Positions 2,059 to 49,100 of a stretch of 64,000 nucleotides of DNA are shown one piece after another. How positions within the stretch are numbered: position 1 is the first letter of the stretch; the number at the start of each line of letters is the position of its first letter. Position numbers and translations under genes: made by a program. This DNA comes from Perkinsus olseni (taxonomy: Eukaryota > Perkinsozoa > Perkinsida > Perkinsidae), in contig JABANP010000225.1 of the NCBI GenBank assembly GCA_013115135.1, positions 16,905 to 80,904 of the forward strand, written 5' to 3'. The notes below the pieces were generated by a model. That model did no database searches. It saw only the letters and a program-made list of their open reading frames with translations, and had not been told where the DNA came from.

Positions 2059-2963
2059 ATGGCACATGGTGGAGAACCCGGGCCTCTTCTCGAGTTCCTC
2101 GACCTTGGCTCTATTGAAGACCTTCAATATTTGACACTCGCCGACCTGGACGAGCAGTTCCGCGCCAAAAACGCATCGCCTGCTACCAAAGCCGGGATGC
2201 GCCGCCTTTTCCACGCCCACTTCAAGGCCCCCCTGGTGTATCGGAGGCCCCTTATTCCTCCGCCAGCCCCTCTGACATCCCCCTCAGCCGCGACGGCCCA
2301 TCTAGCCTGCTCACGACTGATGCCTGGAGCACTTCCAGCTCTGACCCCGCTCCTACTGTTTCCGCCACCAAGTTCCTCGACGTCGTGCGATGTATCACAC
2401 TCCCCAACAACACTGCCTACCGTGGTCGGACCGACGACCGTAGCATCACCGCTTACCTCAACAGTCTCTACCAGGAGGTCGTCCAAGCTGATTTGACCCA
2501 CCGTCAAGCTTGGCTTCTTCTTCTTCGTGCGTTCGACGAGCCTGCCAAGACCAGTCTCCGCCAGGCGGTTCAGGCATCCTGCGTGCCTCGTGGAGTGTGG
2601 ATGAAGGACTTCTTATGGTTCGTGAAGGAGCTTCCTGGGCAGAACGTCAATATGGCGAGTCCAACTCTCACGACCGCATCGATGACAAGTTCGACGACTT
2701 CAAGCAACGCTACGGCGAATCCGTCCATGCTCTCGCGGACCGCCTCGCTTTGCTCAAGTATGAGGCCGATTCCGTTGGCTACGCTGTTACCCCGTCTCAG
2801 CTCCTTCGCGTTTATCGTCGTTCTCTGTATCCCCGCCTTCGCACTCTCGCCTCCACTACCTACTGCGGTTGCGATACGGTCGACGCTCTTGTTCGCCAAT
2901 TGCCCAAGGATCGACTCCCATATGATCTACCGCCAGAAGGATGAGGATGAGAGAATTCATTGA
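2059..2963 (+). pseudogene. Degenerate retrotransposon Gag
   Basis: A capsid-like Gag is spread over three reading frames. Frame one from 2059 holds the N-terminal part (LEFLDLGSIEDLQYLTLADL). A second frame from about 2385 holds a segment with AYLNSLYQEVVQADLTHRQA. A third frame, to a stop at 2944, has KQRYGESVHALADRLALL, the typical Gag pattern of a Ty3/copia-like capsid. At least two frameshifts are needed to connect them. Its 3' flank was then hit by the Pao/BEL-like element at 3002/3003, and a short tail continues at 8127-8149. It belongs to a different LTR family from the inserted element. No pol was found with it. Confidence 0.6.
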
Positions 2964-3002
2964 AGAGGACGTTAGGGATGAACTCTTTACTGGAGAGGAT
3001 GG

Positions 3003-3185
3003 TGTGATAATCTGTGATTATCTGTTTCACCCAGCTTCGCTTCGCTGTTATTTGTGACCAGTTTGTGATAAGGATTTGGTATCTACAGCTTAGCGCTAGT
3101 GGAACCCAACATTAATTTTTTGTATAAGATAAGTCTTTTCCACAATCATATCTTGATTGCGTTTATTCCTTCGAGTTCAAGGACA
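3003..3185 (+). repeat. 5' LTR
   Basis: 183 bp, begins TGTGATAATCTG and ends TTCAAGGACA, matching 7944-8126 at a constant offset of 4941 bp. One difference was noticed (GCGTTTATT here, GCGTCTATT in the 3' copy). No primer-binding site could be assigned with confidence in the 26 bp before the Gag ATG. Confidence 0.93.
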
Positions 3186-3211
3186 TTCTACCGGGATCCT
3201 CTGTTGTAAAG

Positions 3212-5524
3212 ATGGTTATGCCTCGTGAACGTAATGAACGTGGACAGTTTATATCCTCTCGTCACAATGCTCCTGGCACTGTGTTACCTGCTGATACACG
3301 AGATAGTGGTAATAATGATAGGAGGCAAGAAGAAGCTTCCCCTAGTCAGGAGGCAGGTCGTGCTGGAATGGAGAATGGTGGCCTTTTGGATGGTCCAACT
3401 TCAACGAGTCCATCGTTTACAAACCGCCCTGTGCTTCCACCGACCATTAAATCCGGTCTGGGGAATGATCCTAAGACTACTGCGCACTCTTCCCCAGGTT
3501 GGTATTCCCCTTCTGGATCTCCCTTGGGTCTCCGGAATTATTCCGGCCCGCTGGATCGACCCGAACTGGAGAAGATCGTTGGGGATGCAGTGAGTCGAGC
3601 AATGAATAACTTGGTATCTACCCTCGGTTTAACTGGTGGACAAGAACCTTCTGCGACTCAGACTCGAGCCGAACGCCAAAATTTGTCTAGAATCCGGTCT
3701 ATCTCTACAAATGGTGGTTACCAACAGGTACGGTTCGAAACTGGCCGTAAGCCTGGAGCTAATCGTGGTGAGAGAGATGAGAATCTTGGCCAGGATGCAG
3801 CTACTGACTATTATGATAGTGAGCTAGATGATAGTGACGAGGATGTGGATTTACCTTCTCCCGCTCCCCGTTTGACCCGTAAAAGAGTTACTCCTTCGTC
3901 CTTTCCAGCCAAGGCGACTGCAGCTTTGGCCCCGGCTTCTTATGCTATCAATGAGGATATTGATATCACGGATGCCAATAAGGTGGCTAAGGCATGGAAG
4001 TCTTCTGGTCAGTTCCCGAAAATTGATCTCTTCCGTGGTGATACTGATCCTCGTGGCATCCGTCAGTTTTTCTCGTTGGTTACCACTACTCAATCGTACC
4101 GGTTTGCTAATTCTGCTGAGCAGTATTTCTTTGTTTACCGGTGCCTTGATGGTAAACCTTCTCGTCTGGTGGATAAGCATATGAAACATTATCATGCTTC
4201 TCAGACATTTAGCGGCCTGCTCAAGGAGATGTGGAAGGTCTTATATGATGAGTATTCGTAGGGGTGGGCACAAAGTCCGGTCCGGCTGGTCCGGTTGGTC
4301 CGGTCCGGTCCGGTCCGGCTTGCCGGACCGGACCGGACTAATATGAGTCAGTCCGGTCGGTCCGGTTTGGCTAGGTCTGGGTTCGATCCCCGCGACATGC
4401 ATTTTTCTCGCAACGTCGTCGTATGCCTGTTACATGTTGCTACAGCTCGGCCCGCCCATAGGAGTGGCTTAGAATTGCTTTGCGATGCAGTAGGGGCTCC
4501 AACTCGCATTCGCTGTCGTTTTTTGTCTCCGTAAGCCACCAGAACCGGACCGGGCCGGACCGGACCGGACCGGACTCGTTGTGGCGCACCGGACCGGAAC
4601 GGACCGGACTACGCGATTTTAGTCCGGTGCCTACCCCTAAGTATTCGTCGTCTGGAGATTATTTCCAAGTGAGACGGCGCCTCATGGTCATCCGAATGGC
4701 TTCTGGTGATTATAGCAATATTATCTCCAGATATGAGGATTTCTGTGATGAATTCATCAACTTGGCTGAGCAGCTTCTCGATGACGATGATCTAAGTGAG
4801 AAGGCTTATCGCAAGGAGATAGTTGGATATTTTCTGCATGGTTTAGATCCTGCTGTGACTAGAAGGATAGAGCGAGACTATGAGCCGGAAGAGCTGGAAG
4901 TGATATCTTTCAATACTCTGAAGCATAAGGCTCGTTCCATATGCAGATATCTGGCTTCTAAGACACCATCTACTTTAACCAGCTATGGTACGACCGCTGT
5001 GAATAACCAGGTTAATACTATTTCGACATCCGGTAGTACCGGAACTTCATCTGATTCCCCTTATGCTCGATCGGAATTGATGAAATTTCGGTGCCAACGT
5101 TGTCGTTCTCAGGACCATCCTACTTATTCATGTCCTCTTACTGTAGCCCCAGGGCTAGATAGTGGAGAAAGATGTGATAAGTGTGGATTGTATCACCCGA
5201 CCGCTGAGGAGAAGATGAGGTGTAAGGCTCGTGACAGCTCTCAGCTGATATGTGTTAGATGTCGTAAGATAGGCCATCTAGCCAGAGCTTGCCCAGCCAA
5301 CTTTGCGGATCCACTCCCTAAGGAGGAGAGAAACAAGATCTACCAGAATGCTAAAAATGGTAGGAATCTTTATGATGCAGCGAGAGCAACGCCTGATGGC
5401 AAGGTCGCCGAGAAAGTGGCGCCAGCTGCTGGTAAATCCGCCGGCATGGCTGTGGTTGAGACGAAGCCTATACCGCAAGAAGGTGATACTCTTGATGTTG
5501 GTCTATTGAGTGCGGCAGCTGTTC
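3212..5524 (+). pseudogene. Gag polyprotein of the LTR element, interrupted
   Basis: The ORF starts at ATG 3212, 26 bp after the LTR, and reads 349 codons to a TAG at 4259. That stop is the first three bases of an inserted MITE; the same frame resumes at 4640 after the MITE and runs on. The first part is Ser/Pro-rich with an acidic stretch, then a capsid-like region (FPKIDLFRGDTDPRGIRQFF). After the insertion comes the capsid C-terminal half and Cys/His clusters, including a canonical CX2CX4HX4C knuckle (CVRCRKIGHLARAC, about 5257-5295) and two variant clusters before it. The frame is lost near 5520 at the deletion joining Gag to RNase H. Confidence 0.8.
4259..4639. mobile_element. hAT-type MITE (381 bp) inside gag
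   Basis: The terminal inverted repeats are TAGGGGTGGGCAC and GTGCCTACCCCTA (one mismatch), flanked by a perfect 8-bp duplication AGTATTCG (4251-4258 and 4640-4647). Both features are classic for the hAT superfamily. The interior is built of CCGGTCC/GGACCGGAC runs at both ends, able to fold on itself, around a central unique segment. It has no transposase. The insertion supplies the stop codon that truncates the Gag frame; the frame is continuous across the site if the MITE and one duplication copy are ignored. Confidence 0.92.
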
Positions 5525-5525
5525 A

Positions 5526-7904
5526 AGGTTCTCACTTACTTCTAGATCTATTCCGGCCAAGGAGCTGGATAGTCTCTATAGAGCAGTGGAGCTAATCAAG
5601 AAGGTCATGCTGGACTGCCCGAAGGTCGAGAAGGTGACATTCTTTACCGATTCGGAGATAACTATCCATCGATTGAGAGCCTGGTCCTCTGGAAAGTATC
5701 AGAGACTCGGCCTAGGTACCTTTGAGAAGAATCGCCTGCAGAAAATCAACGGGTTCTTGACGAGAAGAAGATTCACTGTGGAGCATATCATAGGTAGAGC
5801 GAATCCAGCTGATGCTGCGACACGCCCTGGCAAGGAGACGCTGACTAGCAAAGAGATAGACTATGGCCTCAAGAAGTCCAAGAGAAGAGGGAATCTACGG
5901 TATGATCCTCAAGCTTATAAGTCGGTAGTCAACGCCTTCTCCGTAGCGACGGAACGAACGAGAGATGGAGAAGATTATGAGTTGGTGTTGCCCGGAGACT
6001 CTCAGCTTCGGTCGAAGTTAGTTCAATCTCAACTACGAGATCAATGGATCCAAGGTATGAAGATTAAGATCAAGGAGGGTGCGACTTTGAAAAGTCCTCA
6101 GACGAGAGGCCTTCAAGTAGATGAAGGAACCGGTTTGCTTGGTAAAAGAACGCTTTCTTGGAACGCCGCTGATGGTAAAAGGACGGTTGACTTAGGAGGA
6201 CTACGATATACTATTCCTGACGCAGATACCTTGCTTCAGGATGAGACTATAGCTCGACTCCATATACACGGTGGCGTGCCGATGAACATCAGGAGACTAT
6301 GCTCTGAGTTCTACTTTAAGCATATGAAGGCCAAATGCAAAAAGTATGTTAACAACTGTGATGTGTGCGAGAAGCTGCGTGCAGACCGATCCTGTCGGAA
6401 GGCAACAGGTGCACTCCCTTCGTGGCAAGTGGGGTGGCTACCATGGGAATGTATATCGTTGGACTATGTAGGACCTTTGTGCCCTGGTGCTGAACTACCG
6501 GTGCAAAAAGATGAGAATCCTTCGGGGTTTAGGTACTATTTGAGCTTCGTCGATGTAGCAACGAAGTATATGATCAACGTCCCAGTAAGGGATCGTTCTG
6601 TATCCTCTCTCATTGCCACAGTGAAGGAGGTGTTCTTGGAAAGAGAGCAAGTACCGAAGTGCTTGATCACCGACCGAGAGCAATCCTTTCTAAGTAAGGC
6701 CTTCCAGAGTTTTCTGCTCTCATTACCGTTCACCATTCACCATGTCACTGGAGCACCCTATCAGGGCCCTCACGCAGGTCACTATGAACGACTTCATGCT
6801 GACATTACGAAGTTCCTACAAGGAGCGTTAGTTGCCGCGGGTGAGGACACTTATTGTTGGCATCGTCATCTTCAACATGCCACTCAGCTCCATAACACCC
6901 TCCCCTATGATGAATGTATTGATGTCTCTCCTGCGGAGCTATTCCGGGGATATGTGCCCAGAAAAGCTATGGACAACGCCACGGTAGAAGAGACCATCGA
7001 GAAGTTACATATGGTTCCCCCTCAGGTGTCGCGAGCCATCCGGGACGTTGCTGAGCAACTGAAGGAGACTCGTGACATCAAGTTTCGGGAGTATAGAAGG
7101 CTATGGGAACTACGGCGAAGTGATGCGTTCGAGAAGGTGTTAGCTAATGTTCGACAACATCGTGATTTCGAGATTAATGATACTGTTTATAGATGGCGGC
7201 CCGCCCAGTCGAAGCTGAGTACGTGTTGGGATGGTCCGTGGAGGATCACGAAGCTACTTGGGAAGACAAGAGCTATACTATCCCTGGTAAAAGATCCTGT
7301 TGTACAAAGCTATGAATCGGTGATCAATTTGAAGATGGCAAAGTCGTGTGATGACTCACTGTCAGGCTTAGATGATGATGTGGACCACTGGGTAGAGTGT
7401 ACTCGATGTGGTAAATGGAGACTGGTGACTCAGGAGGAGTGTGAGCGATTCAAGGATGAGGATGATGTTACATGTGAAGACATGCATTCATCCTGCGAAT
7501 CTCCTTGTGATTGGGTGACTTTAGGGTATGATGATGTTGAGAAGACCTCCACGTTGGTGAATGAGTCTGAAGCATTGCCAGTTCCCATTAAGCAAGTTAA
7601 AAGCTCTATGAATGGATTTGGTTCCTTAGTGGTATTCTTGCTGCCTGGCGATGATTCTACAACTACTCTCACTCATTCCCTGGGAGTTATAGAGGAGGTA
7701 GACGAATCAAATTCTTCCTTTGTGCTGAACACTGGAGAAGATTTGATTCCTGTGAGTTTATGCCCTAATGTCATCTGTTATGTGTTTCAAGGGATTGCCG
7801 AGACCACCCCCCAGAAGTTTGTTCAACGACCTAGTGCTCTGATAAGAAGGACTTTGAGGGATGTTTACGGCTGTGAGTTCACCATTTTCTCCTTAGATTT
7901 ATGA
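5526..7904 (+). CDS. RNase H remnant, integrase and CW zinc finger
   Basis: The reading frame is open from the deletion joint to a TGA at 7904; about 770 codons follow position 5586. The first about 75 residues are the C-terminal half of a Pao-type RNase H (FFTDSEITIHRL, then GRANPADAATRPG). The integrase follows: an N-terminal zinc-binding region ending NCDVCEKLR, and a core with Asp in ISLDYVGPL, Asp in CLITDREQSF and a Glu 38 residues later in GHYERLH. Then comes a C-terminal integrase region and, at about residues 600-645 counted from 5586, a CW-type zinc finger (WVECTRCGKWR, then TCEDMHSSCESPCDW). The last about 120 residues are unassigned. No ATG start is expected because this is polyprotein sequence. 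Confidence 0.85.
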   Translation, partial: RFSLTSRSIPAKELDSLYRAVELIKKVMLDCPKVEKVTFFTDSEITIHRLRAWSSGKYQRLGLGTFEKNRLQKINGFLTRRRFTVEHIIGRANPADAATRPGKETLTSKEIDYGLKKSKRRGNLRYDPQAYKSVVNAFSVATERTRDGEDYELVLPGDSQLRSKLVQSQLRDQWIQGMKIKIKEGATLKSPQTRGLQVDEGTGLLGKRTLSWNAADGKRTVDLGGLRYTIPDADTLLQDETIARLHIHGGVPMNIRRLCSEFYFKHMKAKCKKYVNNCDVCEKLRADRSCRKATGALPSWQVGWLPWECISLDYVGPLCPGAELPVQKDENPSGFRYYLSFVDVATKYMINVPVRDRSVSSLIATVKEVFLEREQVPKCLITDREQSFLSKAFQSFLLSLPFTIHHVTGAPYQGPHAGHYERLHADITKFLQGALVAAGEDTYCWHRHLQHATQLHNTLPYDECIDVSPAELFRGYVPRKAMDNATVEETIEKLHMVPPQVSRAIRDVAEQLKETRDIKFREYRRLWELRRSDAFEKVLANVRQHRDFEINDTVYRWRPAQSKLSTCWDGPWRITKLLGKTRAILSLVKDPVVQSYESVINLKMAKSCDDSLSGLDDDVDHWVECTRCGKWRLVTQEECERFKDEDDVTCEDMHSSCESPCDWVTLGYDDVEKTSTLVNESEALPVPIKQVKSSMNGFGSLVVFLLPGDDSTTTLTHSLGVIEEVDESNSSFVLNTGEDLIPVSLCPNVICYVFQGIAETTPQKFVQRPSALIRRTLRDVYGCEFTIFSLDL

Positions 7905-23432: not shown

Positions 23433-24170
23433 TCAGAGCTTCTCGAGGAGCTGTCGAGCGCCTTCAACGGGTATGACAACCGTCACACCTGTGGCGAAGG
23501 TCACGGACGCAAGATCGCGCCCCTTCTTGAGGTTCAAAGCGGGACAAGACTTCTCGACATCATCGAGGTATCTGTCAAGAGCAGCTTGTTCAGTCGGGTC
23601 CACAACATAGTGCACGTAGGGGCGATCAGCGCGGTTGAACTTGAAGATCTCGTAGTGAGAAGGACCTCCATCACACCAGACCTGCATGCGCACACCGCCG
23701 TCGGCGTATATGTCGTAAACCACCTTGAGACGCGGAGCATCGGGAGACCTGTAGAGGTATATGCCTGGATTGATGCCGAACCCGACCCTAGTGAGCAAGA
23801 TTCCTCGGTCTCGGAAGTTGACGGCGATGGAATCAGCGGTCTGGTAATATAAGAAGGCCAAGTCGCCCTTGCGGAACTTTTTTCCTGGAAAGAGTAGGTC
23901 AATGTTGTCGTACCAGTAGTCGACTCCTTTGAAGGTGTTGCGGAAGTCAACCTCGTAGGTGTTACCGGGCCTCTTAAGGAGGTGGTACAGACCGTCAGCG
24001 AAGGCCGGCTTACCATCCACTCTGAAGGTGATACCAACACGATGGTCTTCGTACACACTGAATGCCATATAGAACTCGTTCGAAGAGAACTCGAACCTTC
24101 CGACATCTTGAGCCATCACGCACATCAGCAGCTGAACAACCATCAGCCAAGGTTGAATGAGTTTCATCAT
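23433..24170 (-). CDS. Secreted protein of unknown function, 245 aa
   Basis: A single long frame. I chose the start MMKLIQP because it gives a clean signal peptide (hydrophobic WLMVVQLLMCVMA followed by QDVGRF), although the frame is open 22 codons further upstream. The mature protein is rich in aromatic and charged residues (DFRNTFKGVDYWYDN, GDLAFLYYQTADSIAVNF) with few cysteines (VWCDGG, EKSCPAL) and suggests a beta-rich extracellular domain. No family is recognised. A decayed paralog lies at 30817-31563 in the second X copy. A 9-bp-arm palindrome about 250 bp upstream is conserved between copies and may belong to the promoter. Confidence 0.7.
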   Translation of the reverse strand: MMKLIQPWLMVVQLLMCVMAQDVGRFEFSSNEFYMAFSVYEDHRVGITFRVDGKPAFADGLYHLLKRPGNTYEVDFRNTFKGVDYWYDNIDLLFPGKKFRKGDLAFLYYQTADSIAVNFRDRGILLTRVGFGINPGIYLYRSPDAPRLKVVYDIYADGGVRMQVWCDGGPSHYEIFKFNRADRPYVHYVVDPTEQAALDRYLDDVEKSCPALNLKKGRDLASVTFATGVTVVIPVEGARQLLEKL

Positions 24171-24417
24171 TGGGGAAGTTCTGGCAACCGAACTATCTAT
24201 CAAAAAGCTCCTGTTAGCGAGTGTAGAGCACAAGAGGCTCTGACGAGGTGCTGGAAACTGTAATTCGACCCTGCGGGATCAAAAGGACATTGCTGGCTAC
24301 CCCCAGGCACTGTGTCATTTTTTGTTCATTTACGTTACAGGACAGTGAAGTACAGTAGCTCGAGGGACTCAGGCTGAAAGAGCTGGGAAGAACGAAGGCG
24401 CACCCCACAGGCGATCT

Positions 24418-29476: not shown

Positions 29477-30816
29477 ATGGGATGTTGTTAAATCTACGGC
29501 TGGCGCGATAGTCTCCAGCTGGTAACTAACATGATGACTTGCCAAGTCCGGCTAACAGAAAGCGGTAGTGTTCTGCGGTGATAGTCTGTCCCAGTAAAAA
29601 TTTCCGCATTGGAGAATTTTGCGCTAGGACGTTGCACAGCGGCGAGTTTAGCAGTGAAACCCATTGTTACGGAAACAGTCCTGATGTTCCGCATCTAATG
29701 GTACCCGTAGTCCCGCATACTCACGTTCGTCGAGCCCGCAGCGCCGACTCAGGAGGTTCGTAGGAGCTCCGGATCCTCTTTCGGTCCATCCACAGTGGAT
29801 GGTCCATGTCCAACGGTTCAACTCCACCCGCAGGAACCGCGAGCGGAGCTTTAGAACCGAAAAATTTCGGAACTTCTCGTTTTGGAATTTTCTGTCCGAT
29901 TTCTTTCCATCTATCTTGGATCCAACTGATGCGGTGTGATGAACCCGCCACGTTTCCATGTAGTGCTATGCTGTACGAAGGGTCTCAACGAGACATGAAC
30001 GAGCATGAGTCGTGCCGCATGACCAGCCCCCATCAATCTTCTGGAGCCCCGGACCGGGCCTCGCCAGTCTATGTCTGCGTCCTTCATTAATTGACAACCC
30101 ACAAAGACGAAATCGGAGACAGTAATCGACTGGCGTAGAAATACGAGGCACCTGACCTATCGAGCTGTCCTACAGCCTAATGCAATGCTCTCAGAATGGC
30201 TAGCCCCAGCCTGGGGATCAGTCAGGCGGGCCTGACTCCAGGCCGTACCATGGTATAAATCGATCCCTGCCGCTAGAATAATCTCCGGCGGCAGGGCACC
30301 GTGCCTTAGGCACACTAACGAACTCCCCTTCGGGCCCCCGTCGGCCAGAAGAGGGAGGGACTGAATCACGCCTTCGGCCGCCTTCACGATAGAAGAGTGG
30401 TAATATGAACCCGCTGCAGATGACAGATGAAGGATGTCACTCAGAGTCAGCTGTCACGCGGTGCGACTCAGAGTCTCCTGGGTTTCGATCTGGCAGACCC
30501 AATCTGCCCTCTCTCCAGGTAAGACAATGGTCACGGCCCTCGTGGCTCAATCACGCAGTGACTACAGAGGGATTATTGTCGCCTCGTATCCGAGCGTCTG
30601 AGAGAGTCGAAAAATGAAATGATAATGATACTCTGTGCCGCGGTAAGCATTTATCCGATATAAAGCACACTTGAACCACGTCCGTTCTGTAACGGGGCTC
30701 AGTTCCAACCGTGCACCCTGAATAGACAGAGAGTCTCGGAAAACCGAGATGGGCAGATTTGTGCGATGCGACTGTCGCCATGAACGTGCAGTTAGGAGTA
30801 GAACTCATGAAGTACT

Positions 30817-31563
30817 CAGAGCCGCTCGAGGAGCTGTAGAGCGCCTTCAACGGGAATGACAACCGTCACACCTGTGGCGAAGGTCATGGACGCAAGATCG
30901 CGCCCCTTCTTGAGGTTCAAAGCGGGACAAGACTTTTGACATCGGTCGAGGTATCTGTCAAAGAGCAGCTTGTTCAGTCGGGTCCACAAACATAGTGCAC
31001 GTAGGTGGACCATCAGCGCGCTTGAACTTGAAGCGCCTCGTAGTGATAAGGACCCTCCATCACACCAGACCTGCATGCGCACACCGCCGTCCGCGTATAT
31101 ATCGTAAACCCCTTTGAGACTCTGGAGCACCAGGAGACCTGTAGAGATATAGGCCTGGGTTGAGGCCGAGCCCGACCCTAGTGAGCAAGACTCCTCGGTC
31201 TCGAAGCTGACGGTGATGGAATCAGCGGTCTGATAATATAGGAAGACCAAGTCATCTTTGCGGAACTCTTTCCTGGAAAGAGTGGTTGAATACCCCGGTA
31301 CCAGTAGTCGACCCTTCCTTTATAGGTGTTGCGGAAGTCAACCCCGTAGGTGTTACCGGGCCTCTTAAGGAGGGGGTACAGACCGTCAGCGGAGGCCGGC
31401 TTACCATCCACCTCTGAAGGCAATACCAACACGATGGTCTTCTACACACAGTGAATGCCATATGGAACTCGTTCGAAGAGAAGGCGAACCTTCCGACATC
31501 TTGAGCCGTCACGCACATCAGCAGTTGAACAATCATCATCGAAAGTTGAATGAGTTTCATCAT
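30817..31563 (-). pseudogene. Decayed paralog of the X secreted-protein gene
   Basis: Aligned to the intact gene at 23433-24170, this copy keeps the MMKLIQ start and signal peptide (MIVQLLMCVTAQDVGRF) but changes frame several times: after FHMAFTV, again near the GRVDYWY region, and again around 31250. The three frames visible on this strand each hold a different third of the protein. It is unlikely to make a full product. Confidence 0.8.
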
Positions 31564-31813
31564 TGGGGAAGTTCTGACAACCGAACTATCTATCAGAAAG
31601 CTCCTGTTAGGCGATGTAGAGCACAAGAGGCTCTGACGAGATGCTGGAAACTCGTGATTCGACCCTGCGGGATTAGGCCATTGGTGGCTACCCCCAGGCG
31701 CTGTGTCATTTTTGCTCATTTCGTTACAGTAAAGTGAAATATAGTTGCTTGAGGGACTCACAATGAGGCTGAAAGAGCTGAGAAGGACGAAGGTGCACCC
31801 CATAGCGCGATCT

Positions 31814-31832
31814 ATAATACGTTACGTATTAT
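31814..31832. promoter_or_regulatory. Second copy of the X palindrome
   Basis: Same 9-bp-arm palindrome ATAATACGT/ACGTATTAT as at 24418, upstream of the decayed paralog. Confidence 0.45.
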
Positions 31833-38214: not shown

Positions 38215-40416
38215 CGCTCCGCCTACTTCCGGTAGCGCACATCTAAACGCTCTCGTTTGAGCTCTTCTGTACTCGAGCTGGAGTCACTGTCGTCGGCGGT
38301 CTGAGGGCATCCAAAGGTCCCCGGTTCGAACCTCCCTTTCGGCATTATTCACTTCGGAGCTGCCTTCTTTCTCCTTCCTCCCGCTGGCAATTTCCAGCGC
38401 TCCCGTGAAGGTACCAGTCTGAACGAAACGAGTGGTAGTCGGAAGGTCGCAGGTTCGAACCCCACGGTCGTCACCTCAGTCGTTGGTATTCTGACCCCAC
38501 TATGAAAAGTGAAAGATTCTCCTGGACGAACGAGAGGCTGAAATAATGATGAAAATCAGCATACAAAACTTCGCTCCGCTAACAAAAAAATCACTATCAG
38601 CCAGAATTTTGAGGGCACGGTGAATCGCTGGTCTCACGACTGGAAGGTTGAGATGGTTTTCAGCGGAGGAAAAGATATGATCGAAGGATCTAAAATTTTC
38701 AATCCCCTGCCCTTCTCGAAAACTCGATACGGCCGGTTCTACCATAGCAAATTTCTCGCGCGCCACAAAATAAGTTTCTCACCGTCAAGCCGACCACGCC
38801 CATGGCCTCTTCGCTGCCCGGGTTGATATCAGCGAAGATCTGAAAACCGGGGAGATGTGGAATGTCCGTGTTAAATCCACACTGCCATCGAAAATTTGGA
38901 AATTTCGGAAAAATGGGGAAAATTGTCGATTCATTTTGTCTCTGCGCAGCCTTCAGCGGCGTTGACATACTTGGGCACAGAGAGCCGTGACGCTTGACGT
39001 CCGTATAGCGCAAAGATATTTTCTTCCGGCCAGGTGTGTTCATCCGATCAGTACCAGGGCTGTAGTCCAGCCGACCACAGGTCGCCTTGGCCTTTGTGGT
39101 CACCGACGGTTAGTCCGCCTCTTCGCGAAGACGTTAGTGGAACAACCCGACTTGAAGAGGCAGTACCAAGGATACCATCCCCGGCCTGTGAATTTCGATT
39201 CGGCAAGAAATTAGTCTAATTCGCTTCGGTTGAAGAGAGTGAAACAGCAGATTGAGGAATGCACTGCTGACCCCGTCTCGGGTGTTGTGTCCTGAATCAG
39301 TTGGCCGGTAAGGTCCAGTTCATGTGAAGACTCGTTAACTCTCAACGGGACATACGATTTCGGTTGGCTGAGTTGTAGGGAAGAGCAATGAAGGGATAAA
39401 ACTCACACCAGTGAGGAAAGCCAACGGTCGCTCGAAGCGGCGAGAGCAGAGTTTTAGATCTAACGAAAGCAAGGCGAACTGTTGCATAAAATTTTGCTGG
39501 TCTGCCCGACCACCCTTCCTCCTCACGTGGTCATCAGCGTCCCGAAAAGTGTAATTTCGGCCAAGTATTCGATACTCGTTATTCTGATGGAGATTGTGTA
39601 TGGTTATGCGATATGTGTATACCTGAAGGGAAAATGTCGTCGCCGAGGATCGAACCCGGGATCTATCACGTAGGTCCGCTTGGACGGATCGGCAGGCTGA
39701 GGGGCGTCTTGGCAATAACCGGTAGCCACCTGATAAAGATACTCCTGGATCGATCACGTGATCGATTTGACCTGTATCATTAATCCAGCTTGTGGATCGA
39801 CGCGTTGGAAGTTACTCGCGTTTAACACAGATTGTTCGGATACGTATCTGACAGCCACCTGTGCATGCGTGCTAATCGAATCATATCTTAGTAACCTACT
39901 TGACGGTTTCAAAAAGAGTGTCTTCCTCTTCTCGAGGAGCCACAACAACCTTGTTGTCATCTTCGCAGAGCAGCGGTCTGAAAGATGATAATCCAAAGGC
40001 CCCGGGTTCTATTCCCACGCATGACATACCGTAACAATCGATCTTTTAGGCGACCGATTGAAAGCCCCGAGACCCTTGCTGGGCGGCTGTCGGAATCACA
40101 ACCACTCGGGATTGACTTCGATACCAGCTGAAGGGAATCTTTGAGGTCGACTCAGGGAGTATCTTTGGCCATCGTGTTCTGCCAGCTCGAAAGATACTAC
40201 ATGGAATTTGAGAGCCTTTTCGGCTGTATACGCCAACTCGGATACTCGAACAACGTTGGTAGTCATTGAATATCCTGAAAGAGAATCTTGAGGTCGAGCG
40301 TGCAAGATACAAAATGGGTCAAGCCGTCGACCTCGCCCCCAGAAGTCGATTTGACAGGGGTAGTTCGTCTGCAACAGTTGTCGGCCATCCATCAGATTGA
40401 CGATCTTCCCACCTGA
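38215..40416. other. Intergenic with scattered tRNA-like B-box sequences
   Basis: GGTTCGAACC at about 38323, AGGTTCGAACCCC at about 38450, GGATCGAACCCGG (reverse orientation) at about 39650 and GGGTTCTATTCCC at about 40002 resemble RNA polymerase III B boxes of tRNA T-arms. None has the partner acceptor strand, D-arm or anticodon arm of a tRNA. They resemble the tRNA-like cores in introns at 43769, 43926 and 46662. No protein gene is supported here. Confidence 0.5.
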
Positions 40417-41203: not shown

Positions 41204-44226
<3,023 letters not shown>

Positions 44227-45144: not shown

Positions 45145-46445
45145 GAAGAAGATTATTCACTCTCACTGACTGATAGCATTTCCAAAAATTCCTTTTTTCC
45201 CGTTGGGTTGTCAATCGGGTTACCGTCACTGCGCCACGAAATTGCTCTTCAGCGTTCTCATGTATGTCATCATCGTCACCGGCAGAGTTTAAGGATTTTT
45301 ATGAAGTTTTGGGGATTTGCCCTACGGCCACTGATGCCGAGATAAAGACAGCGTAGTAATGGGAAGAGGGCGTTGAGGAAATTCAAGATTTCAAGATTTG
45401 GCGAGATGCTGGTATGGAAATACTTCGCAGTTGGAGGTTTGAGTTTCAATTACCATTGAACTTTTGAGAGATGGTGAGAAAGTAGAAATTATCAACTCGC
45501 TGTTATGTTCTCGAGAGATTTCTCACCGGGACGCGAGGAAAGTGCGCGAAGAGGTCATTCCAGTACGTCGTTAGGTGGCGGCCTAGTAGAGGCAGAGAAG
45601 TGCTTTCGATTCGAGTAGAATGACAAAGTACAAGATTCAATTTTCTATTGACATAATACTTGAAGGAAGGGTAGAGGGTAGAGAAAATTTTTTTAAATTT
45701 CGGTAATGTTGTAGATGTTTTTTGAGAAAATTCTCGTCTTGTAGAGGAAAGAAAGTGTTGCGAAGAGAGGGTATGGGAACCGAAGCAAGGTGGGAAGTAC
45801 TCGAAAGGAGGACGGCTGGGGGTTGAGAAAAAATCATTTTTCCCTTTCTCGATAATTCCCGTCGTTGTTGTCCGTAATAATTGCTCCCGGGAAATTCCCG
45901 AAAATTTGTATACAACTTCCCCACTTTCGATGAGAGGGTAACATCGAATCTTGCGATCTGAATGAAGGCTGCAAAATGTGAATCGTTGGCGTGAGTGAGT
46001 TCAACGCCGAGAATAAGGCTTCATTAGACTAGCACCTAGGATGCACCTTTTCCTGGGGGATATGTTCTACCCGTTCTTCTCATCGGTAGATCGTTGGCTG
46101 TCTTTTTTTACTCACAGAGCGAAAGTATTTGAAAATTTGCCGTATGATTGAGGGCATCTCAGTTGAAGTGTATAAATAAAACCTAGTAATAATAAAATCT
46201 AAGTATAACATAGTGTTGTAAATATTAATGCAGGACTGAGAGTTGTTGGGGATCTCTCCTCGAGGACTTTCGTACCGGTTGATAACGTGCGTCCGGCAAT
46301 TAAAGTGTTAAGAATAGGTAAAGATTTTTTATATTTAATAAATCTTAATTTTTTACTATAAAATTTGGAATCTTGAATGTTATCAGTTTGAAACTATTGA
46401 TAGGCACCTGTATGTTCCAGTTCGTGAGGTTATCATAATAGCACC
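45145..46445. other. Intergenic, no gene recognised
   Basis: AT-rich spacer between the TMA7-like and J-domain genes. A minus-strand ORF (45637-45924) has low-complexity sequence and no support. Confidence 0.4.
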
Positions 46446-49100
46446 ATGGGAACTCTTTCTCCCTCTTTTTTGGGTGCGCCTCAAGCCATCTTCGACGCTG
46501 AGTATTGGAGGATTCTAACTCGAGAATTGTGGGATTTACGGTATGCGAGGGCTTTTTTTAGGTATCGAGAGACGATTAAATTATGGCATCCTGATAAGCA
46601 TAAAGGGGACGGCAGAGAGGAGGCCTTGGGGAAGAGTCAGATGATTAATGAAGCTTATGCGGTACTGAGGATAGGGCGCGGGTTCGATCCTCGCCAGCGG
46701 CGTTTTTCCGGAATATATTGCTGTCTGTGAGGTACTGAGGGATCCAGACAAGCGGCAGAAGTTTGATATCGAGTTGCTGAAAAATCGGCGTGCCCGCGCG
46801 GATGTAAAAAAGGGGGCCGGGAATTTCGTGGCGCAGTGACGGTTGCTAGGCTGCCAAAGAGGAAGGAAATAACTGCTATCGGGCGTCAAAGTTCGATGAA
46901 GCGGTTCAACACTACAGTCGGGCTATCGAGTTGGACAACACTAATCATGTATACTATAGGTGGGTGGAAATCGATCAGCTGGGCGCGCGCTAAATTCATG
47001 AGGTTAGTAATCGGTCTACAGCGTATGCTGCACTGGCGAAGTGGGGTGAAAGTCGGGAGGATGCTGAGAAATGCGTAAGTGAGAGCAAGATTGCAAGATT
47101 TTTTTATTTTTGGGGTTGTTAGTTGGAGATGAATGAGCAGTCTGTGCGAGCACATTATAATTTGGTGAGGGCGAAGATCAAAATGGGTCATTTGGGTGAG
47201 TTGGGCGGTTGCGAGTTGCGAAAAATTTGGTATGGAGAAGGGCGAGATTTTTCTTAAAATAGTAGAGTTGGAGGCATCATCTACCTGATGATCTCAATGC
47301 TATTTTTATGCATATTTCTGAGGGTTTCTTTTCGCGCTCACGAAAAATTCGGTGGATTTTTTGTTTCACCTTTGGGCCACCAATAGAGCTTGACGGTGTT
47401 GCACTGGTTTTGCTGCTTGGTTGGCTTTAAGTCGCTTTCTCTAGCGGAGCGAAGGTGGGGATATTTCGTTTCTCAGGAGACGCACAGAAGACGCTGACGA
47501 TAGCGCTTGGAAAGTTTCCGCGGGATTCGGATCTTATTAAACTGAGGACGGAGTTATTTACTTCCTCTTCGCGTCCGTCAACGCCGCCGTCGAAGTTGGT
47601 AGTATGGGATGGCGGCCAAGGTCTATGGGACGATGTTTTCGCGATTGGTGTGTTGGCCAGAAGGCGAAGAAAACCATTTTCTCGAATCAGATAAATTTTT
47701 CGTTCCTCCAGGATGATTTTGACAGGGTAATTTTCTGATTATTCCAACTGCCGTGACATTCTTTCATATTGTGTAAATTTATGGTTTTTCCCGGAAATTT
47801 TCTGGTCTTTTTCAAACTTTCCGATTTTTTCTGTCCTCAGCAGGCGAGTAGCAGATTGTCGAGCTTAACGCCGCCTCGCAGCCGGTCGGTTGTGAGGGAT
47901 TCGACACCAACCAGGGAAAGGGGAAGAACCCCACCACGAGTAGGGCGGAGCGAAGCGATTTTTTGAATGCCAGTATTTTTTTCGGCGGCGTTTCAGAGTA
48001 TAGATGATGATGAATTAGAAAGAACGGCGAACTTTGGAAAATTGAGAGTAATAAGCGACACCGCAATGATGGGGGATTCGAGAATGGCCGAAGCAGGTAG
48101 ACCGTGAGAAGGGTGATGGTTCGCAAGAAGAGCAGGCGGCCTGCTTCGGGCTGCCAACAGCGTCCGCTGGGGTGAGTTGTCATGCGGAAATTTTTGGAGA
48201 TGTATCAGTAAATTGCCGGTAGTGAATGGTAGATTTTTGTGTCGGGGAGATCTGTGGATGGCCTTAGAGACGTGCTGTCCACCATCATCGGCGTAGGGTT
48301 TTGACCCGTACGTAATTCTCTTCACACGTTGCTTCAATTCGTCCTTCTCCGAACACTCTAACGCAGAATATTTTGACTGCCGTACTGTCGGCGTTGGTCT
48401 TCAAACTCACACATGACACGGTTAGATTGCTATGTAGAGAGTGCAAAGTTATGCTGAGTTGTCAAAAGGAAGTTATCGAATTCTCAGGTAGCGGGTGAAG
48501 GGGGAGTTGGAGAGCTGCCACCGCTCGCCGCTCGATTGCGTCAACAGATGAAGCCAGCGATAAACCCAGTAAGATCTCATCATATTCCACGAGTGTCGAA
48601 TGACTGCCAAGTAGCGGTAAAATAGAATCTGGTGGGTATCTTTTCATATAGGAGCATGTAGAAATAAAGACAGCGGGAGCGGTCCTCGGCACGACCTCGA
48701 AAAACGGCGAAACACTTTAACCAAAATTGGCGTTTTTGTGTAATTCTGGCAGATCACCGGTGCTCCGGTCGCGGTCTCGCCAGTGGCAGAGGGATCTCTG
48801 AGTTACCGAAGGAGTGGTTCGAACGATCAGAAGGGGGCCTGGCAGCCTCCGCCTCCAATGCCAGATGGAAGAAAGTGGGAGCTTAGCGGAGCGAAGCGAT
48901 TCATGTTTTACATTTTAGGCTTGCCGCTGTGGCGCCTCCTAGCCTGGCAGTACACAGTGAGTATCTTGTCGAGCTTCGTTTCGGGCGAGTTACGGTCGTT
49001 AGGGTCGTCGCCGCCGCATCACGTCGGAGCGGTGAGGAGAGATCTCACGCCACCAGCGCGGCCGTACAGGCATTCGGACTTTGCGGATCAGCCGAGTAGG
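46446..49100 (+). CDS. J-domain/TPR co-chaperone, multi-exon
   Basis: Well-supported exons: 46446-46661, 46732-46803, 46850-46959, 47008-47074, 47123-47195, 47477-47598, 47841-47939, 47997-48096; they join in frame. Exons 1-2 encode a J-domain (YRETIKLWHPDKHKG with the HPD motif, then VLRDPDKRQKFD), which stimulates Hsp70. Exons 3-6 encode TPR repeats (AKEEGNNCYRASKFDEAV, NRSTAYAALAKWGES, EMNEQSVRAHYNLVRAK). Exon 7 is Ser/Arg/Pro-rich (SSLTPPRSRSVVRDS); exon 8 is acidic. Further exons probably lie at about 48136-48180 and 48753-49100, including a Pro-rich stretch, but their joins and the stop are uncertain. J before TPR is the reverse of DNAJC3/DNAJC7. Introns are mostly 46-70 bp. Confidence 0.75.
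46671..46730 (+). mobile_element. Introner-like insertion forming intron 1 of the J-domain gene
   Basis: The intron 46662-46731 is bounded by a perfect 10-bp direct repeat GGTACTGAGG (46661-46670 and 46731-46740). Removing the 60-bp insert plus one repeat copy gives exactly the spliced mRNA. The donor GT lies in the first repeat copy and the acceptor G in the second, the classic layout of introner insertion. The insert carries GCGCGGGTTCGATCCTCGCC, a tRNA T-arm-like core, followed by GGCGTTTTTCCGG, shared with helicase intron 10. Confidence 0.8.

Follow-up and report, generated by a model that had tools for sequence, protein, structure and literature searches.

A family of short Perkinsus olseni introns that share a tRNA 3'-end-like core

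A 70-nt intron in a J-domain gene of Perkinsus olseni belongs to an introner-like family, a set of related introns that lie at many non-homologous positions in one genome and share a short core resembling the 3' end of a tRNA gene. We consider it rather probable that these are near-minimal spliceosomal introns nucleated by a tRNA-3'-end-like element, a truncated tRNA-like RNA that would have been inserted by LINE machinery. The intron lies within the window, by which we mean the whole stretch of 64,000 nt that was analysed (contig JABANP010000225.1). The original prediction described it as a recent introner caught with its target duplication intact and holding a T-arm-like core; the introner and its tRNA-like core stand, whereas the recent gain and the extension of target duplication to the family are not supported.

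The J-domain gene and its 70-nt intron

The gene product has a J domain and, after it, TPR repeats; the exons and introns of the gene are listed in Table 1 with the other features of the window. The predicted direct repeat is present at both intron edges (perfect over 10 bp, at a spacing of 70; 13 nt if one mismatch is allowed), the 60-bp insert plus one repeat copy does make up the intron, and the T-arm-like core of the insert is real. The intron had been taken for the first of the gene; since annotated orthologues show an upstream exon, which had been missed, and a 1209-nt first intron after it, it is the second. Judged on protein-level evidence, removal of the 70 nt keeps the reading frame as it is in the relatives: a domain search with the spliced translation gives a DnaJ match (E 8e-21, residues 11-75) with the intron junction after residue 63, and INEAYAVLRDPDKRQKFD runs uninterrupted through four annotated proteins, three from other P. 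olseni strains and one from P. chesapeaki. An mRNA left unchanged by the insertion, as had been claimed, would agree with the unbroken reading of these four proteins. None of the other four introns mapped in the gene contains the tRNA-like core. A search of the window copy of the insert, the only copy examined, gave no inverted repeats of 8 or more, and the predicted RNA fold of the 70-nt intron is unremarkable (z -0.01). Tandem exon duplication was considered as the origin of the insert and rejected, the insert being unlike exon sequence.

Table 1. Features of the window; position 1 is its first letter
Feature	Position	Strand	Remarks
Exon 1, J-domain/TPR gene	45264..45352	+	from annotated orthologues; followed by the 1209-nt intron
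Exon 2 (J domain)	46562..46661	+	from translation
Left copy of 10-bp direct repeat GGTACTGAGG	46661..46670	+	5' splice site GT at 46662
GT-AG intron, 70 nt, second intron of J-domain/TPR gene	46662..46731	+	splicing gives DnaJ domain and the sequence of annotated orthologues
60-bp insert between repeat copies	46671..46730	+	no terminal inverted repeats found
tRNA-3'-end-like element	46673..46707	+	variable-loop-like AGGGC, B box GGTTCGATCC (46681-46690), acceptor-like CAGCGGC, T-run 46703-46707; read from sequence and family alignment
Right copy of direct repeat GGTACTGAGG	46731..46740	+	the AG of the 3' splice site ends on its first G
Exon 3 (J domain end)	46732..46803	+	from translation
Exons 4-6, J gene	46850-46959, 47008-47074, 47123 onward	+	from translation
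Core-less introns after exon 3, J gene	46804-46849, 46960-47007, 47075-47122	+	from translation
Second family member, 47-nt intron, DEAD-box helicase gene	43769..43815	+	element sense; splicing restores HRIG followed across the junction by RTGRAG
Third family member, 96-nt intron, same DEAD-box helicase gene	43926..44021	+	element antisense (core on - strand at 43954); the 11 spliced residues align gap-free to DDX17
Candidate 47-nt intron with family element	39623..39669	-	core at 39656, - strand; open-frame support only
Family element, perhaps in intron of minus-strand gene	38315..38349	+	open-frame support only
Family element, perhaps in intron of minus-strand gene	38444..38478	+	C55 copy has the same gap between flanks
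Family element, no convincing intron context	4372..4406	+	core match

The window also holds retroelement-like ORFs at 2118-7904, with zinc-knuckle and integrase-like sequence as read from their translations, and, at 23433-24278 on the minus strand with similar ORFs at 30816-31821, a protein family that includes FOZ60_005364; all 13 of the relatives found bear P. olseni names, and this protein family looks lineage-specific.

A family of related introns in one genome

In the P. olseni genome (61.5 Mb, 968 contigs), a 65-bp search with the insert gave only three matches, all of them copies of the J gene. Short patterns at up to 3 mismatches gave 38 and later 91 matches, with 0 for the reversed control each time. 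An exact-register pattern with a free 10-base spacer matched 88 times against 2 for the 11-base spacer used as register control, and the looser GGTTCGAWYC-N10-CATTTTT matched 218 times, a count that includes allelic copies, whereas its reversed form gave 0. When 74 elements were aligned after removal of near-duplicates, conservation was limited to positions -9..+25 around GGTTCGA, with flanks at background, and yielded the family consensus RAGGTCCCRGGTTCGATCCCCGGCAGCGGCATTTT, which is biased by the search words, just as the conservation of the core partly reflects how the copies were found. Within the window, GGTTCGAWYC has 9 matches (7 sites), as against a mean of 0.42 and a maximum of 3 for 300 permuted motifs. 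Rough estimates under relaxed matching come to about 6,700 copies when scaled from the window (7 per 64 kb) and about 10,700, allelic duplicates included, from the fetched flanks, and by this rough extrapolation the genome probably holds several thousand relaxed family copies. Cores were found in both orientations and also outside recognised introns.

Variable loop, B box, acceptor-like strand, A and T-run follow one another in the element as they do at the 3' end of a tRNA gene; the conserved part of the element is tRNA-like and asymmetric, and the B box stands in tRNA register in the pattern matches (88 and 218). The likeness has limits. Among 69 elements, neither the T-stem nor the acceptor pairs better than in shuffles, and a seven-base upstream acceptor partner was matched in 5 of the 69 against 4.14 in shuffled sequence. 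The acceptor-like 7-mer is highly diverse for a simple copy family, with 50 kinds in the 69 elements, and this diversity is explained by none of the three leading mechanisms discussed below, namely retroposition, break repair and a conserved intronic signal. A-box-like sequence upstream (11 or more of 12 positions) is mildly enriched (16/92 against 7.2 expected); of 88 matches to a pattern combining A and B boxes, 6 are degenerate sequences and the rest, by reading, real or near-real tRNAs. Conservation stops at the T-run, with neither a SINE body nor an A-rich or LINE-like 3' tail, and no full-length master element was found. That the elements are real tRNA genes lying in introns was rejected: they have no cloverleaf pairing, and Rfam and ARAGORN see none. 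In 20 loci, at E up to 10, Rfam found no tRNA except one genuine tRNA-Ser, and the ARAGORN matches whose end falls in an element would require an intron of 123 nt at L031/L050, of 279 nt at L055 and of 227 nt at L071. A separate repeat, present at six loci (L011, L014, L016, L019, L020 and L025, about position 1500), has several near-identical copies and looks like a whole tRNA-like unit with an A-box-like sequence and a B box.

Introns around the elements were called with a heuristic that requires GT-AG; it called 89 of 92 elements, and 56 scored 16 or more. The set used below comprises 60 introns, namely the 56 good calls, one of them (L029) replaced, and four added by hand (the window intron, L036, L090 and L054), and counts from it lean on this choice. 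Forty hold the element in sense and 20 in antisense, their lengths run from 43 to 87 nt, and 39/60 measure 43-57 nt. The donor-like motif GT[AG][AG]G is most frequent between 11 and 20 nt upstream of the core, with 21 occurrences in the 92 elements against 0-5 per 10-nt bin outside -30..0, and the peak was repeated in 61 elements fetched later and chosen regardless of repeats (11 against 0-3). An antisense-donor peak at +30..+39 (10 occurrences in the first set) was not reproduced in the second set, which had only 2; the case for antisense splicing is therefore carried by the genes described below.

As read from protein similarity, family introns are spliced with the frame kept in genes where a domain or a homologue spans the junction. 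For sense elements such continuity is seen in the window DnaJ gene, the DEAD-box gene (Helicase_C), GTP cyclohydrolase I (GTP_cyclohydroI), a SET protein, an amino-acid transporter (Aa_trans), ribosomal protein L7/L12 (Ribosomal_L12) and a P4-ATPase; for antisense elements it is seen in cystathionine beta-synthase and at the second intron of the window DEAD-box gene. Two elements, one in sense and the other in antisense, are separated by about 130 nt in the SET gene, the antisense junction lying outside the matched domain, where an open frame is its only support; the SET protein had no match among structure sequences. In the three protein sets tested, Pfam gave no family for 3/10, 6/10 and 2/5, and in the first of these the cystathionine-synthase and Band_7 matches fell below the Pfam cut-off. 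At the L7/L12 locus (L152) the junction is right and the end residues of the translated piece are wrong, as are the end residues at L156; L126, translated in a wrong frame, is left out of the evidence. The label of introner given to the J-gene intron therefore fits, since it behaves as spliced at the protein level and its T-arm-like core recurs in many other introns genome-wide.

Copies of one family intron differ in length. The helicase intron at 43769-43815 has 47 nt in C141 and 65 nt in C55 (19440-19640, L107); the longer form holds GGTAATCGAAAGGTCCCGGGTTCG where C141 has only GTAGGTCGCGGGTTCG, and it has a longer tRNA-like 5' part with an anticodon-arm-like stretch. The difference is consistent with a deletion between two AGGT repeats and, since the anticodon-arm-like stretch recurs in some other elements, the 5' parts of elements were probably lost by deletion. 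The spliced DEAD-box protein keeps a 16-residue stretch that is absent from DDX17 and is probably another unspliced intron. A family intron at C79:27100-27637 (429 nt between flanks) exceeds its counterpart in the other gene copy by about 370 nt, which suggests a further insertion inside it.

Direct repeats and the age of the insertions

When the junction of the upstream exon with the intron was compared in register with that of the intron and the downstream exon, a match of 7 or more was found in 3/60 introns against 0.28 expected with partners shuffled, and one of 8 or more in 2/60 against 0.01, the window intron having 10 (expectation 0.00); two of the three cases, the window and L090, were manual additions, and L090 joined the set once its repeat had been noticed. 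If the offset is left free, the expectation for repeats of 10 or more among 103 elements is 0.24; what lifts the window repeat above chance is its precise register with the splice sites. Direct repeats with free offset are not generally in excess, either in the 103 elements (7 or more, 11 against 7.98; 8 or more, 4 against 2.12) or in the second set (8 or more in 1/61 against 1.29). The individual lengths vary, being 10 in the window, 8 at L090 and 7 at L057, all in register, and 11 at L158 (C80:6835-7081), where the right copy adjoins the T-run (a repeat this long or longer has an expectation of 0.02 among 61 elements). The repeat is largely absent from other copies, which was one of the outcomes named as refuting the original prediction, and target-site duplication as a family-wide rule is not supported.

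No empty sites were found in joined-flank searches of 54 further junctions of the family (33 of 40 prepared, and 21) in the same genome. Extra copies were recovered for 16 of the 54 loci (8 and 8), 28 in all (11 and 17, read from gap tables), and every one was filled; one of the junction searches scored 40 of 45 first-look candidates, so some copy may have been missed. At L158 the two further copies (C640 and C595) are both filled, and the two further genomic copies of the J gene both bear the insert, C274 at 100% and C55 at 95%, the latter with one change in the left repeat and with GGTTCG altered to GATTCG in the core. Since all extra copies are filled, the tested insertions predate the divergence of those copies, and the description of the insertion as recent is unsupported.

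Origin of the introns and comparison with known systems

We favour an origin by retroposition of tRNA-like RNA. An element of 35-45 nt, comprising variable loop, B box, acceptor strand, discriminator A and T-run, would be inserted in either orientation, with splice sites that would be partly target-derived: in the window intron the GT is part of the left-hand repeat, and the AG of the acceptor spans the boundary of the right-hand one. Where the element lies in sense, its T-run would probably act as the pyrimidine tract. The 10-bp window repeat is most simply read as a surviving target-site duplication, and the element is most likely a 5'-truncated tRNA-like RNA (Pol III type) that the LINE machinery of the genome copied in and deletion later trimmed; the LINE-type endonuclease domain has 57 matches in the genome, 55 of them over cut-off. 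A more specific proposal, which we advance tentatively and would not expect to hold, is that the introns derive from the 3' halves of tRNAs. A 3' tRNA half, or else a Pol III transcript, of the form (G)GTAANNNNN-AGGTC-T arm-acceptor-A-UUUUU would be reverse transcribed into exons, with the anticodon-loop GTAA or GTAGGT as 5' splice site, the terminator as pyrimidine tract and the AG supplied by the target; if so, one short RNA would be a ready-made intron. The 65-nt helicase intron of C55, which contains GGTAATCGAAAGGTC, gives a hint of this, and the most frequent distance of GTAA ahead of AGGTC is exactly 9 nt, yet this holds for only 5/153 elements, as compared with 3 at 8 nt and another 3 at 10 nt.

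The main rival to retroposition, although we regard it as unlikely, is double-strand-break repair, by which staggered breaks in exons would be filled with short tRNA-derived fragments, leaving variable repeats and unrelated insert ends, and the filled site would then be spliced. The varying repeat lengths would suit it, as would the 23 further nt by which the 60-bp insert extends past the T-run and the lack of a full-length master, while core, 10-nt spacer and T-run keep a strict register over many copies, unlike random tRNA pieces, and a T-stem that does not pair is unlike pieces of real tRNAs. Next comes the more doubtful idea that no mobile element is involved and the core is a conserved functional signal under selection, such as a B box bound by TFIIIC or one that serves splicing or chromatin. 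A well-conserved core between random flanks, a variable acceptor-like part and copies that do not vary in presence or absence speak for it. Against it, cores lie in both orientations and outside recognised introns, four other J-gene introns do without one, the C55 copy of the J gene has its core altered in an intron with 6/70 differences, and core conservation is partly a product of the search.

It is improbable, in our view, that the J-gene intron is simply an ordinary old one whose 10-bp repeat arose by coincidence or later conversion. The insert is common to all genome copies of the gene, repeats are generally absent from the family, and the divergence of the intron between C141 and C55 is not below that of exon 4 (13/110), though above those of exons 2 and 3 (1/100 and 3/72); an in-register repeat of 10 is nevertheless not expected by chance among 60 introns, and the intron contains the family core. 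Least probable of all is a cut-and-paste DNA transposon of the MITE type, as in many published introner families. Some published introners have target duplications of 3-9 bp (PMC9860276), and the window repeat has 10 bp, but the window copy has no inverted repeats, the few duplications seen have no fixed length, and the conserved part is tRNA-like and asymmetric.

The origin of new spliceosomal introns is a long-standing question. A short intron of a shellfish parasite, belonging to a large family built around a tRNA-tail-like piece, hints at an unusual route for intron birth, and a family with a tRNA-like core, whose introns are often 43-57 nt long and lie in both orientations, would point to a source other than DNA transposons. 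The question of intron gain is directly testable here, because proteins of P. olseni strains and of P. chesapeaki are already public. Searches of the literature, in which subscription journals were largely outside the scope, gave no tRNA- or SINE-derived introner recognisable from titles and the openings of abstracts.

The P. olseni element resembles tRNA-derived SINEs in its B box, tRNA-like register, T-run and apparent 5' loss, and in the presence of a LINE-type endonuclease in the genome; it differs in having no body or tail, an A box that is at best weakly enriched, a very short length, a highly variable acceptor part and few target duplications. Introns that arise from repair of staggered breaks, of the Daphnia type, have short direct repeats of variable length at their edges, a likeness to the P. 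olseni introns, which differ in having a recurrent tRNA-like core in strict register.

Many published introner families have been traced to DNA transposons, and families that lack duplications or inverted repeats are described as well (Gozashti et al. 2022, PMC9860276); the main text of that paper mentions neither Perkinsus nor tRNA. As described there, introners are sequence-related short introns at many unrelated gene positions, with splice sites from the insertion site or its duplication and an mRNA that is usually unchanged, and in these respects the P. olseni family is similar; it differs in a core that is like a tRNA 3' end, in splicing in both orientations, in a shared part of about 35 nt and in that mobility has not been observed. 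In the literature searched, the terms introner and Perkinsus occur together only in the Amoebophrya genome paper (PMC7789003). The introner elements described in that paper also belong to an alveolate parasite with many similar introns, a subset of which have direct repeats at the splice sites. They have inverted repeats and mostly non-canonical splice sites, whereas the P. olseni introns, of which the window copy is without an inverted repeat, are GT-AG (a condition set by the caller) and are built around a B-box core.
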